Assembly (NCBI GenBank): GCA_003140075.1
Contig: PLIO01000110.1
Location: 1 to 35,957 of the forward strand
Direction: 5' to 3'
Source: Acidobacteriaceae bacterium
GTDB lineage: Bacteria; Acidobacteriota; Terriglobia; Terriglobales; Acidobacteriaceae
Length of the DNA stretch: 35,957 nucleotides
Numbering within the stretch: position 1 is the stretch's first letter; each line of letters starts with the position of its first letter. The notes beneath the pieces are model-generated. The model was not told the origin of the DNA. It searched no databases and saw nothing but the letters and a program-made list of their open reading frames with translations. Made by a program: the position numbers and the translations under genes. This document shows positions 441-34,516 of the stretch, in pieces.

Positions 441-468
441 AAATTCAGCTTCTAGCTGCTAGCTTTCC
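441..468. repeat. Heptamer array abutting the atpD start
   Basis: Three tandem 7-base units, GCTTCTA, GCTGCTA and GCTTTCC (448-468), follow the atpD start codon region with a lead-in at 441-447. They match the G-Y-N-N-Y-Y-R pattern of the other arrays in the window. No clear inverted partner was found for this particular array, although the next array in the same gap is paired. Confidence 0.7.
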
Positions 469-471
469 AAA

Positions 472-562
472 GCATTCAGCATTCGGCCCGTGAGCCTTAG
501 CTTCGCGCCCCGCAACAGCCCTCACTGGCTGAATGCTGAGTGCCGACTGCTGACTGCTCGCT
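472..562. repeat. Inverted heptamer array, atpG-atpD gap
   Basis: The left arm (472-492) carries units GCATTCA and GCATTCG. The right arm (523-562) carries GCTGAAT, GCTGAGT, GCCGACT, GCTGACT and GCTCGCT. The left arm and 523-543 can pair over 21 positions with 18 Watson-Crick pairs, two G-T wobbles and one mismatch around a 30-base loop. The right array runs into the stop codon of atpG at 561-563. In the mRNA of the atp operon this would be a strong hairpin between gamma and beta cistrons. There is no T-tract, so it does not look like a standard terminator. Confidence 0.85.
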
Positions 563-1640
563 ACATCGCGGCCGCGCCGCTTACGATCTCGATAATCTCT
601 TTCGTGATCTTCGCTTGCCGGGCGCGGTTCATCACCAGCGTGAGCGAGTCGATCATATCGGTCGCGTTGCTGGTGGCGGAATCCATCGCAGTCATGCGCG
701 CGGCATGCTCGGCCGCCACCGACTCCAGCAGCGCGCGGAAAATCTGGATCGCAACATATTTCGGCAGCAATGACCGGAATAACTCCTCCGGCGGCTGCTC
801 ATAGATGTAATCCACCTGCGCTGTGCCGAACGTCTCCGCGACTTTATCGGCCGGACTCTCGCCGCGCATGCCCACACCCGCGCTGATCGCCGCTTCTTTG
901 GCCTTTTTCCTTTCCTCTTCCGTCATCTCCTCGGCCAGGCGGATCGCGGGCTCGCCAATCTGCTCGATGGGAAGAATCTGCTCCACGATGAGCCGCTGCG
1001 CGATCACCGACTTGAATTCGTTGAAGACGATGTAGACGGAGTCGATCTGTTCGCGGCAGTAACGTTCGATTACGTTCTCGGCGAGGGTCCGCGCCTGCGC
1101 AAATTCCAACTTGCCGAGAACGCCCACATGCTCTCCGGTAATTTGTACGGCTGCGGCACGCTCGCCCGGCTCACCTTGCGTCTCCAGCGACTCCTCGGTC
1201 TCAGCGAGGCTGCGCGTGCGCACGGCCGCAGCAGGATAACGCCTGCGCAAGAAATCGCGCCCCTTGCGGCCGATCGCCTCAACGTCGACGTTCTTCCCTG
1301 CCTTGGACTCGAGGAACCGGCTGGCAGCTTTGGTGACGTTAGCGCTGAATGCGCCCGCCAGGCCTTTATCGCCGGTAACCACGATCAGCAGAATATTGTT
1401 CTCCGGGCGCTGCGCCAGCAAGGGATGTTTCGGTTCTCCCGTTTCTGGATCGTAGATCTCGGCGCGCGCCACCAGCGACTTAAGGACATTCGTCAGCATC
1501 TGCGCGTAGGGCCTCGCCGCAAGCGTGCGGTCCTGTGCGCGGCGCAGCTTGGCAGCCGAGACCACTTTCATGGCTTTGGTAATCTGCCGCGTGTTCACCA
1601 CGCTGCGAATACGGCGCCGAATGTCGAGAATGTTGGGCAT
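561..1640 (-). CDS. atpG: ATP synthase F1 gamma subunit, long form
   Basis: This is the central rotor stalk subunit of F1. The N-terminus MPNILDIRRRIRSVVNTRQI and the C-terminal helix RARQAKITKEIIEIVSGAAAM are diagnostic of the gamma coiled coil, and VVTGDKGLAGAFSAN (about residues 88-101) belongs to the Rossmann-like domain. At 359 residues it is clearly longer than the usual roughly 290. Extra sequence sits at about residues 143-165 and, mainly, at about 226-275, where a charged segment rich in E and K precedes the conserved YIYEQPPEELF. Both lie in the globular domain, not in the coiled coil. It lies between atpA and atpD. No Shine-Dalgarno is visible before the ATG; the upstream gap is a heptamer array. 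Identity is secure; the role of the inserts is unknown. Confidence 0.96.
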   Translation of the reverse strand: MPNILDIRRRIRSVVNTRQITKAMKVVSAAKLRRAQDRTLAARPYAQMLTNVLKSLVARAEIYDPETGEPKHPLLAQRPENNILLIVVTGDKGLAGAFSANVTKAASRFLESKAGKNVDVEAIGRKGRDFLRRRYPAAAVRTRSLAETEESLETQGEPGERAAAVQITGEHVGVLGKLEFAQARTLAENVIERYCREQIDSVYIVFNEFKSVIAQRLIVEQILPIEQIGEPAIRLAEEMTEEERKKAKEAAISAGVGMRGESPADKVAETFGTAQVDYIYEQPPEELFRSLLPKYVAIQIFRALLESVAAEHAARMTAMDSATSNATDMIDSLTLVMNRARQAKITKEIIEIVSGAAAM

Positions 1641-1648
1641 TGAAAACC

Positions 1649-1755
1649 AGCCATTAGCTGTTGGCTCTTGGCCTTTAGCTTAAACCGGCACGATTCCTTC
1701 TTGGCTACTGCGCTCCGCTTGAGGCCAAGAGCTCAAGGCTAAGAGTCAGGAGCTT
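1649..1755. repeat. Inverted heptamer array, atpA-atpG gap
   Basis: Left units are GCCATTA, GCTGTTG, GCTCTTG and GCCTTTA (1650-1678), in perfect 7-base register. The right arm (1721-1755), read on the minus strand, gives units of the same type such as CTCTTAG, CCTTGAG and CTCTTGG. The two arms share an inverted core GCTCTTGGCCT within a 20-position match that has four differences. The right arm ends inside the atpA stop codon. Confidence 0.8.
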
Positions 1756-32520: not shown

Positions 32521-32967
32521 ATGACACTCAGCTTCTGGAAATCGAAATGCTGGACTGCCTGCGGTATCGCCTTGGTGGTCTTTGCCGCCGGATCGTCAAT
32601 CACCAGCCGGCTACTTCATGTCAACGAAGTTAAGGCCGATAGCAACCGCATATTCGAGCTTCGGGTTTATCACGCCTTGCCGGGCAAGTTGCCAGCGCTT
32701 GAGTCCCGGTTTCGCGACAAGACTTCCAAGATACTTGCCCGGCACAACCTGAAGGTTGTGGGTTACTGGGTAACCGAAGAGGCATCCGACAACTCATTCA
32801 TTTGGATCGTCGCTGATGCCAGCCGGGAGGAAGCGAAAAAAAACTGGGAAGCGATGATGGCCGACCCTGAATTTCAGGACGTCATAAAAGCCGAGCAGGC
32901 TGAAAAACTCGTGGAAAAAGTCGATGTGACATACATGCGCCCGACGGATTTTTCAATGATCAAGTAA
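32521..32967 (+). CDS. NIPSNAP-family protein
   Basis: A 148-residue protein with an N-terminal membrane or signal segment (CWTACGIALVVFAAGSSI) and then a NIPSNAP domain: IFELRVYHALPGKLPALESRFRDKTSKILARHNLKVVGYWV, followed by SFIWIVADASREEAKKNWEAM. The family has a ferredoxin-like dimeric alpha/beta barrel fold; its cellular role in bacteria is unclear. A GAGGAAAAC ribosome-binding site precedes the ATG. It is downstream of the padR pair but separated by about 70 bases, and probably has its own expression. Confidence 0.78.
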   Translation: MTLSFWKSKCWTACGIALVVFAAGSSITSRLLHVNEVKADSNRIFELRVYHALPGKLPALESRFRDKTSKILARHNLKVVGYWVTEEASDNSFIWIVADASREEAKKNWEAMMADPEFQDVIKAEQAEKLVEKVDVTYMRPTDFSMIK

Positions 32968-33314
32968 TCGCATAAGGCCAGGCCGTAGCGAGGAGCGCTT
33001 GGAAATCCGGCGCCATTTGAACAGCAGGCTGGTTGAGAGCGATCTTAGCGGAACAATGTCGCAGAATCACATGATGTTGATGTTAAGGAGGTTAAGGATG
33101 CTAAACGGGTCAAAGCTGGTCCTTCCCTCTTTCTTCGCCAGCAGATCGAGATTATTTTGCGTCCGGAAGCCATCCAGACGAATCTTTCAATTGGCGTCTA
33201 ACGCTGGGGCGCGCCGCTCGTCTAATCACGTTTGGGTTAGCTTTCAGACCCAAGCGCCCCCAGAGTAGTGGAGTAATCAGTGCTGACAACGCAGGAAATG
33301 CGAAGCGAAAGCTC
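32968..33314. other. Intergenic region upstream of the RND genes
   Basis: About 350 bases with no secure gene. An AAGGAGG at about 33086 precedes an ATG opening a 57-codon frame (MLNGSKLVLPSFFASRSRLF...), but an overlapping frame reads more protein-like (KEVKDAKRVKAGPSLFLRQQ, then IEIILRPEAI) without a start codon. This could be the remnant of a gene, and is left uncalled. The promoter for the RND genes should be here but was not identified. Confidence 0.4.
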
Positions 33315-34424
33315 ATGTTCATGAAATCTCATAACTATTCAGTTCATAGCCTTTTACTTGTGGCGCTTGCAGCCAGCGGAGCGATGATGGCATGCTCGGG
33401 AAGCACGCCGTCGAATGCCCAAGCTCAGGGTCCGCCCGGAATGCCAGTGAAGGTACAAGAGGCGCGCGCTACTCCGGTCAACGATGCTACGGAATACGTG
33501 GCCACAGTGAAGTCGCGCGATTCGGCTGTCATCATGCCGCAGGTGGAGGGCCAGGTCACCAAGATCTTCGTTCACTCGGGCGAGTCGGTTGGCTCCGGAG
33601 CGCCGCTGATGGAGATCGATCCCCTGAAGCAGCAGGCTACGGTCAAGAGCCAGGAAAGCTCCCGAGCGGCACAACAGGCGAACCTGAACTGGACTAAGCA
33701 GCAGTTCGAGCGCTCCCAAGGACTCTTTTCGGCGGGCGTCGTGAGCAGGCAGGATCTGGACCAGGCGAAGTCCGCACTGGACGCGGCCCAGGCGCAGATG
33801 GAATCGCTCGACGCCCAGGTCAGTGAGCAGCAAGTGCAACTGCATTACTACCGGGTCGTGGCTCCGTGGGGTGGAATTGTGGGAGATGTTCCGGTACGCG
33901 TGGGCGACCGGGTCACGACCGCAACGCAACTGACCACCGTGGACAAGCCCGGCAGTCTGGAAGTCTACGTGTACGTGCCCATTGAACACTCTTCTCAGCT
34001 CAAGCTGAACCTGCCCGTGCAGGTGCTGGACAGTGACGGTAAGGTAGTGGCCGACAGCCGCGTCAGCTTTATCTCTCCGCAGGTGGACAATACGACGCAA
34101 ACCGTGCTGGTGAAAGCGCGCATCGCCAACAGCAACGAAGCCCTGCGGCAATCGCAATTCATCCGCGCACGCGTCGTGTGGGGTACCCACCAGAACCCGG
34201 AGGTTCCGATCCTGGCTGTGTCGCGGCTGGCGGGGCAGTACTTCGCTTTTGTGGCCGAACCCCAAAACGGCGGCTCCTACGTGGCGCGGCAGAAGGCACT
34301 GAAAATTGGACAGACGGTGGGGAACGATTACGAAGTCCAGGAAGGCATCAAGCCCGGCGACAAAGTGATTGTCTCCGGCACGCAATTTCTGCTGGATGGG
34401 GCGCCGGTGATTCCGCAAAGTTAA
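33315..34424 (+). CDS. RND efflux periplasmic adaptor (lipoprotein)
   Basis: The membrane-fusion (AcrA/MexA-type) protein that links an RND pump to an outer-membrane channel. The 369-residue protein has a lipobox near residue 27 (AASGAMMACSGS), a beta-barrel/lipoyl start VKVQEARATPVNDATEYVATVKSRD, a lipoyl motif VEGQVTKIFVHSGESVGSGAPLMEIDP, then a coiled-coil hairpin (QQATVKSQESSRAAQQANLN through QMESLDAQVSEQQVQ), YRVVAPWGGIVGDV, and the barrel. It is upstream of the pump gene across a short gap with a heptamer array. The substrate is unknown. Confidence 0.92.
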   Translation: MFMKSHNYSVHSLLLVALAASGAMMACSGSTPSNAQAQGPPGMPVKVQEARATPVNDATEYVATVKSRDSAVIMPQVEGQVTKIFVHSGESVGSGAPLMEIDPLKQQATVKSQESSRAAQQANLNWTKQQFERSQGLFSAGVVSRQDLDQAKSALDAAQAQMESLDAQVSEQQVQLHYYRVVAPWGGIVGDVPVRVGDRVTTATQLTTVDKPGSLEVYVYVPIEHSSQLKLNLPVQVLDSDGKVVADSRVSFISPQVDNTTQTVLVKARIANSNEALRQSQFIRARVVWGTHQNPEVPILAVSRLAGQYFAFVAEPQNGGSYVARQKALKIGQTVGNDYEVQEGIKPGDKVIVSGTQFLLDGAPVIPQS

Positions 34425-34446
34425 GCTGCAGGTTTCAAAACTCAAC

Positions 34447-34516
34447 AGCAATTAGCAGTTGGCCGGATGGAGTGCCGTGCCGATGGTTTGCGCTAACTGC
34501 CAATTGCCAATTGCTC
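34447..34516. repeat. Inverted heptamer array between RND adaptor and pump
   Basis: Left units are GCAATTA, GCAGTTG and GCCGGAT (34448-34468). Right units are GCTAACT, GCCAATT, GCCAATT and GCTCCCG. The left arm and the inverse of the right arm agree at 16 of 19 positions. The loop is short. This is the only array found between two plus-strand genes. Confidence 0.75.

Follow-up and report, generated by a model that had tools for sequence, protein, structure and literature searches.

Repetitive extragenic palindromic sequences and bacterial interspersed mosaic elements (REP/BIME) are extragenic, hairpin-forming and located near gene ends, and the short tandemly repeated repetitive (STRR) sequences of cyanobacteria consist of one unit in direct repeats with no inverted partner. 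The stretch of DNA analysed here, hereafter the window, comprises 35,957 nucleotides (contig PLIO01000110.1, assembly GCA_003140075.1) of an Acidobacteriaceae bacterium, a soil bacterium whose genome counts 5.77 Mb in 276 contigs, and its intergenic gaps carry tandem arrays of 7-nucleotide units arranged as two inverted arms. In contrast to REP/BIME, these arms are tandem heptamers and display no conserved palindrome. A reading of the window made from the letters alone (the sequence-only reading) had named the cyanobacterial STRR as the closest class, a placement that gives way to the paired arrays of Xanthomonas and Geobacter as these are described in the literature. The GGGAATC arrays of Xanthomonas (Rehm et al. 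2015, PMC4692102) have in common with ours the heptamer period, the inverted pairing, the location near stop codons, the scarcity between divergent open reading frames and the positional conservation; they are, however, built from one G-rich unit that has been studied as a quadruplex former, whereas here many units occur that differ between loci, mostly without G-runs. In fact, intergenic heptamer arrays, close inverted pairs, stop proximity and divergent scarcity are all found in our material, and the G-runs are the Xanthomonas feature that it mostly lacks. Likewise, the Gmet_I "putative global regulator binding sites" of Geobacter metallireducens (PMC2700814) are described as tandem 7- or 8-mers, mostly in opposite-strand pairs at variable distance and with several classes per genome, and were offered as IHF/HU sites. 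Each Gmet_I class is BLAST-recognisable through one consensus (MTYCTGA, GTTGCTYN or TCTCCGTS[Y]; PMC2700814); here opposite-strand pairing of 7- and 8-mers is also found but one consensus per class is not, since the units vary by locus within a loose pattern, YRRNNRC (GYNNYYR on the other strand). The TAACTGA repeats of Beggiatoaceae (PMC4679880) are likewise intergenic heptamers, located just upstream of start codons, and read as TGATAAC they fit YRRNNRC, but they are reported as 169 direct-repeat sets of one unit with a single indirect repeat, whereas the pairs described here are inverted. No report of such paired arrays in Acidobacteriota was found in the open-licence literature searched, and three features seem to be new: the large number of unit sequences, which vary from locus to locus; arms that change jointly while their place is conserved; and the balance of G·U and A·C mismatches described below.

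The central observation is that the two arms of a gap match each other, and we tentatively attribute this match mainly to a concerted DNA process acting in situ, an explanation to which we give somewhat less than an even chance. An inverted arm pair was present in all seven gaps named in the sequence-only reading, with best ungapped scores of 12.0-17.0 (arms of 17-32 nt, 15-26 complementary positions), and none of the 200 Markov shuffles made of each gap, which reached at most 10.0-12.5, equalled the observed score. Three of these gaps lie within the atp operon (delta-alpha, alpha-gamma and gamma-beta) and the remaining four at a MoaA gene, at an etfB-like gene, at a YceI-like gene and between resistance-nodulation-division (RND) efflux genes (Table 1). 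The samples then scored came from the window's own genome (942,509 bases), a congener (G006; 479,850 bases) and a genome from a distant family (G119; 307,009 bases), with arrays detected by self-similarity at lag 7 (in the window, 145 of 35,937 positions reach 10 matches of 14 as background). Some stretches were picked mostly from contigs with known array hits, which biases the array frequencies of the own genome upward; others were picked by contig number and one for the atp operon. G119 was selected for a high pattern count, G000 has an estimated contamination of 5.8%, two all-N contigs were excluded, and genes were called by a custom script, with uncertain predicted starts.

In the own sample 111 lag-7 arrays were detected, against 7, 5, 30, 7, 4 and 6 arrays at lags 4, 5, 8, 10, 11 and 13, respectively; lags that are multiples of 3 yielded arrays in coding sequence. 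The lag-7 arrays were mainly non-coding in 96 cases and not in 15, in agreement with the dispersed distribution and the restriction to gaps and gene edges read earlier, and the same holds for 56 of the 72 arrays of G006 and 92 of the 104 of G119. When arrays were chosen by lag only, 71 of 458 own gaps contained at least one, 39 of them two or more and 32 a single array, and adjacent arrays were inverted rather than direct in 35 of 39 own cases, 7 of 8 in G006 (one tie) and 25 of 28 in G119, which is not the organisation in unpaired direct repeats of TAACTGA or of the cyanobacterial STRR. The loops between arms have a median of 34 nt (quartiles 21-54.5). Arms of the same gap scored 15.0 in inverted orientation, compared with 6.5 for the better orientation with arrays of other gaps (p = 2e-15), and the corresponding values were 14.1 and 6.8 in G006 and 20.7 and 10.3 in G119. 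The likeness of arms within a locus holds beyond the window, and the outcomes that the sequence-only reading had named as speaking against it, namely arrays equally common in coding sequence or in shuffled gaps and ends of different gaps pairing equally well, were not observed. In most of the genomes surveyed by Mrazek (2007, cited in PMC4679880), heptamers rank first among long simple repeats, a point in favour of polymerase slippage acting independently on each arm. Nevertheless, arms of the same gap are inverted and of one type, and unlinked slippage is thereby refuted for the pairing, for which we regard it as most improbable, although slippage of this kind may still occur within arms and in arrays that have no partner.

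The feature common to the paired arrays is the gene end, not the operon. In the own genome, inverted pairs of period 7 (score of at least 12) were found in 39 of 339 gaps between co-directional genes, 2 of 52 between convergent genes and 0 of 67 between divergent genes; the corresponding figures are 8 of 149, 0 of 22 and 0 of 34 in G006 and 16 of 85, 7 of 22 and 1 of 18 in G119; lag-7 arrays of any kind were present in 3 of 67 own divergent gaps and in 4 of 18 in G119. Among co-directional pairs, 33 of 43 own loci, 5 of 8 in G006 and 14 of 17 in G119 have a 5' arm that starts no more than 10 nt from the stop codon, and this arm lies closer to the stop than the other arm does to the start in 35 of 43 own pairs and 16 of 17 in G119, though only 4 of 8 in G006. 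A bias confined to co-directional gaps was considered on the basis of the first sample, in which strong inverted repeats (score of at least 13) occupied 41 of 240 gaps between co-directional genes, 2 of 37 between convergent genes and 2 of 42 between divergent genes. It was dropped once the set had been enlarged to include G119 (with 16 of 22 convergent gaps), where co-directional gaps (93/573) did not differ from the rest (33/215; p = 0.83); only the scarcity in divergent gaps is consequently upheld. Motifs of the Shine-Dalgarno type are rarer before own genes preceded by paired arrays (4/44 versus 78/295, p = 0.013), a difference that was non-significant in G006 (0/9 versus 33/140) and G119 (4/22 versus 18/63).

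Such placement would be expected if the arrays were mRNA hairpins under selection, in which a post-stop stem stabilises, processes or terminates the message, as is thought for REP-type hairpins, and stem-loops are reported to prefer in general the 3' ends of genes over divergent spaces (PMC1590033). The joint type difference of both arms in orthologous gaps, described below, points the same way, as does the folding of the window gaps as RNA, which surpasses the shuffle mean in all seven (z -1.4 to -5.1) and is unmatched by any of 200 shuffles in three. The folds of the other four are however weak, with 4-16 shuffles as good, and the mismatches do not behave as expected. If RNA stems were selected, G·U should outnumber A·C among the one-sided transitions that are tolerated; in the mRNA strand of co-directional gaps we counted 60 G·U and 65 A·C mismatches over 68 loci (95% confidence interval of the G·U share 0.39-0.57), and A·C predominates at 28 loci and G·U at 19, whereas an identical count in 13 tRNAs used as control gave 11 G·U and 0 A·C. 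G006 alone tilts to G·U (12 to 6, p = 0.24). Unit order is not mirrored between arms either: with arms chosen by lag, the own pairs scored 15.92 versus 15.61 when permuted (p = 0.27, n = 32), and G006 and G119 were likewise non-significant. An earlier order test with arms chosen by pairing had been positive and had suggested mirror copying, but choosing arms by pairing favours mirrored order; the signal vanished with the lag-only choice and the mirror-copy reading was withdrawn. Beyond the arrays, the flanks of the 32 own pairs are not complementary (inner 0.31, outer 0.26), and in the window no Rfam match was found at the gathering score. Pairing across the gaps, as proposed in the sequence-only reading, thus stands at the level of unit type but not of unit order, and an mRNA hairpin as the maintained feature is unsupported, with order unmirrored and no overall excess of G·U. 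The strict RNA-hairpin reading was rejected as main explanation on the mismatch count, and selected hairpins appear to us somewhat unlikely; use at the transcript level is possible, but RNA pairing does not appear to be what maintains the likeness of the arms.

The comparison with relatives shows where the arrays are conserved and what changes in them. By AtpA the nearest named records are the Acidobacteriaceae metagenome-assembled genome (MAG) palsa_246 (95%) and Candidatus Sulfotelmatobacter MAGs (94 and 93%), and by eye the architecture recurs in the corresponding atp gaps of the nearest relatives, in some cases with different unit types, the alpha-gamma gap having TAAGAGC units in the window and in palsa_246 and TGAGAAC in L111. 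An automatic count returned inverted 7-mer pairs in 10 of 80 named loci (4 in L108-L118, 6 in L119-L157 and 0 in L158-L187). Between the own genome and G006, 25 orthologous gaps were compared. Among the co-directional and convergent ones G006 has an array in all 8 gaps with an own array and in none of the 15 array-free ones, 4 of which have practically no gap in one genome; two divergent gaps stand outside this count, one of them with an unpaired own array and none in G006. The window accounts for six of the eight array orthologues; a gap of 738 nt has its array at identical coordinates in both genomes, and one case is unpaired and convergent. In three of the eight (atpH-atpA, the moaA gap and gap 12 of contig C15) both arms differ, in our reading, in type. 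The identities of arms and gap remainder (0.86 versus 0.57, 0.76 versus 0.74, 0.55 versus 0.43, 0.60 versus 0.43, 0.65 versus 0.56 and 0.61 versus 0.62) are mixed, and a slower evolution of the arms is not claimed. From this comparison with G006, the presence of an array is inherited by place while its content turns over on both sides together. Miniature inverted-repeat transposable element (MITE)-like mobile elements inserting behind stop codons would be compatible with the more distant L116-L118, in which, by eye, no paired arrays were seen in the same atp gaps and most of these gaps are shorter. However, no core homology at E <= 1e-3 links the own-genome loci (109 cores, three genomes compared), so that the conserved core between copies that defines a MITE is lacking in the own genome, and a presence that tracks the gap in the congener is unexpected from independent random insertion; this origin is disfavoured and in our view very unlikely.

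The units themselves follow a grammar that belongs to the lineage. At a fit of at least 0.95, GYNNYYR describes 69% of 90 own arrays, compared with 14% of random 7-mers from the same gaps, and in a pattern-free test the differences between neighbouring units concentrate by phase (996 versus a null of 756 +/- 19 in the own genome, 550 versus 447 +/- 16 in G006 and 547 versus 466 +/- 18 in G119). With the pattern as alignment guide, neighbouring own units disagree at position 4 in 45% of cases, at position 5 in 23% and at C7 in 8%. Aligning in this way tilts the result towards variable N positions, though towards neither N in particular, and both the phase test and the difference between the N positions (0.45, 0.23) are free of this bias. 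The unit is in effect a five-base core, RCYRR, followed by two freer bases. Among arrays fitting YRRNNRC at 0.85 or more, 30 recurrent units were listed, about ten types by eye, and GGG is present in 2 of these 30 commonest units. Polarity is nearly fixed in the own genome, with the left arm GYNNYYR in 40 of 45 pairs, 3 opposite and 2 ambiguous. In G119, in contrast, only 27% of arrays fit the pattern, the fitting units being mainly TGAGGAC and others, by eye, GAATTGA and GGGTTCA; variability is even along the unit, and 15 pairs are of opposite polarity, 8 of the same and 2 ambiguous. The single degenerate pattern of the sequence-only reading therefore survives within the genus and fails outside it, a universal pattern and polarity were rejected, and since units, polarity and variability all differ in G119, the unit pattern is a property of the lineage and not of the architecture. 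A scan for four YRRNNRC units in 297 genomes of the phylum gave matches in 230, chance included, with counts from hundreds to zero even inside one genus label (in g87, 70 + 109 in G196 and none in G141 and G272); its control was unclean, as TGRNCAC units also match the reversed pattern, and it is used only to describe the arrays as widespread and patchy. Conserved and free positions are what a binding motif with spacers would display, and together with the nearly fixed orientation they are consistent with paired arrays of sites for a DNA-binding, possibly architectural, protein, by analogy with the suggestion made for G. metallireducens. A protein accepting many types gives, however, no reason for a type shared within a locus, and G119 has mostly other units with opposite polarity; protein sites are thus an unlikely cause of the match between arms.

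We hypothesize instead that the arrays would be intercistronic elements, anchored at stop codons and evolving in place, in which DNA copying between the arms keeps them alike. The arms would fold on each other one unit out of register and the protruding unit would be copied from the opposite arm, while ordinary slippage would reshuffle units within each arm, and the two together could spread one unit type through both arms, with growth in 7-nt steps. Under register-slipped copying the flanks would stay uncopied and the order of units would be lost, and growth might be bounded by the stop codon and the ribosome-binding region. Homogenisation of inverted arms through template switching has been reported (PMC8604942; PMC8794818), and we infer a register-slipped form of such switching for the present arrays. 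Such copying combined with slippage would be expected to give a shared type, lost order, unrelated flanks, growth by 7 nt and equal numbers of G·U and A·C mismatches. As RNA, the arms may form a long hairpin directly after the stop that could protect or process the upstream message, but this pairing would not be what keeps the sequences matched.

Several observations weigh against this explanation. The DNA model leaves the unit grammar unexplained, position-specific variability being unexpected from slippage and templating alone, and a binding protein may be the obvious candidate for it. In G119 a private interruption is mirrored in both arms, and at least one pair has thus kept its order. The balance of G·U and A·C varies more between own loci than a binomial spread would give (dispersion 33.4 versus 21.4 +/- 4.1), so that RNA selection could act on a minority of them, and in two of the three gaps with changed type the remainder likewise aligns poorly, at 0.43, which makes a wholesale replacement of the gap possible. 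In addition, only 7 of the 32 own single-array gaps have an inverted partner (score of at least 10) in the remaining gap and 25 do not. The absence of pairs from own divergent gaps and the anchoring at stop codons are moreover predictions of a role at the transcript level; the DNA process does not account for the avoidance of divergent gaps, which may reflect tolerance or a role at 3' ends. The fuller picture, in which stop-anchored elements at fixed places in the genome have arms that change together by register-slipped DNA templating, producing strong apparent covariation without RNA selection, and in which the five-plus-two grammar comes from an outside factor, is accordingly one that we put forward as doubtful.

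The arms and single arrays of the window are listed in Table 1. Besides the paired arms, the sequence-only reading had placed six arrays in the window, of which four (448, 15512, 16657, 25814) are modest, with 10-11 of 14 positions matching at lag 7, that at 18984 is a TGAGAAC run with an indel (9 of 14; reported by Tandem Repeats Finder), and that at 29196, with 7 of 14, is indistinguishable from background. The predicted moaA start codon (23181-23183) sits within a TGAATGC unit. The 7-base register read earlier is not the sole one, and arms of period 8 and about 10 occupy comparable places. In the window, an inverted pair at 25842-25879 and ~26054-26091, made of ~10-nt units of the CACGGATTCACACGGATGAA kind, lies upstream of the gene at 24102-25817(-), with 38-nt arms and a score of 20.5. 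Hairpins of 8-nt units (GTTTCAAG type) occur in L066 (~18805-18877) and in contig C16 of G006 (~98987-99080), and further 8-mer types (GCGATTGG, GTAATTTG) were found in the same kind of gap. In G006 the gap orthologous to window positions 34425-34533 contains, by eye, two nested matched pairs, the outer GGGCTTCG-like and the inner TAATTGC-like, and in G119 (L234-L250) telomere-like GGGTTCA arrays and 9-mer CTTGGGAGT arrays occur with inverted partners, some apparently nested. One stretch (L075, contig C264, 17.8 kb) is very dense, with 18 lag-7 array rows listed.

Table 1. Heptamer arms and arrays of the window; the strand is that on which the units read YRRNNRC (GYNNYYR on the other).
Feature	Position	Strand	Units and context
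atpD-side arm	448..494	-	two TAGNAGC-type units 448-464, TGAATGC units 472-494 (pairing part); by atpD start (3-440, cut by window end)
Partner arm at atpG stop (561)	521..557	+	TGAATGC/TGAGTGC/TGACTGC units
Arm directly upstream of atpG start (1640)	1649..1681	-	TAAAGGC/CAAGAGC units
Partner arm abutting atpA stop (1754)	1721..1754	+	pairing part 1730-1754
Arm upstream of atpA start (3286)	3298..3325	-	CGAGCTG-like units, poor fit to pattern
Partner arm entering end of delta-subunit gene atpH (stop 3412)	3381..3427	+	pairing part 3381-3408
Unpaired array, convergent gap	15512..15545	-	TGAGAAC type; best inverted score of the gap 5
Broken array by stop (19019) of a minus-strand gene	18984..19018	+	TGAGAAC; no partner seen
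Arm upstream of gene 19019-19453(-)	19489..19516	-	TAACGAC units
Partner arm by stop (19632) of YceI-like gene	19596..19627	+	inverted pairing with 19489..19516
Arm containing predicted moaA start codon (23183)	23179..23211	-	TGAATGC units
Partner arm abutting stop of next gene (23279)	23248..23278	+	inverted pairing with 23179..23211
Short array upstream of gene 24102-25817(-)	25810..25838	-	TAAGTGC/TGAATGC types; no 7-mer partner seen
Arm upstream of etfB-like gene	28825..28859	-	TGAATGC/CGAGTGC units
Partner arm overlapping stop of next gene (28914)	28883..28920	+	inverted pairing with 28825..28859
Arm downstream of RND adaptor gene (stop 34424)	34447..34463	-	TAATTGC type
Partner arm upstream of RND permease-like gene (start 34534)	34487..34515	+	CAATTGC units

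Earlier accounts framed arrays of this kind as quadruplexes in Xanthomonas (PMC4692102), as regulator sites in Geobacter (PMC2700814) and, for the unpaired repeats of Beggiatoaceae, as possible translation signals (PMC4679880). The same architecture built from many units that are not G-rich suggests that none of these unit-specific functions is the common one, and opens a mutational or 3'-end mechanism common to these systems to testing. If DNA templating is indeed what keeps the arms matched, two-sided covariation in intergenic hairpins would not by itself be proof of a selected RNA structure.

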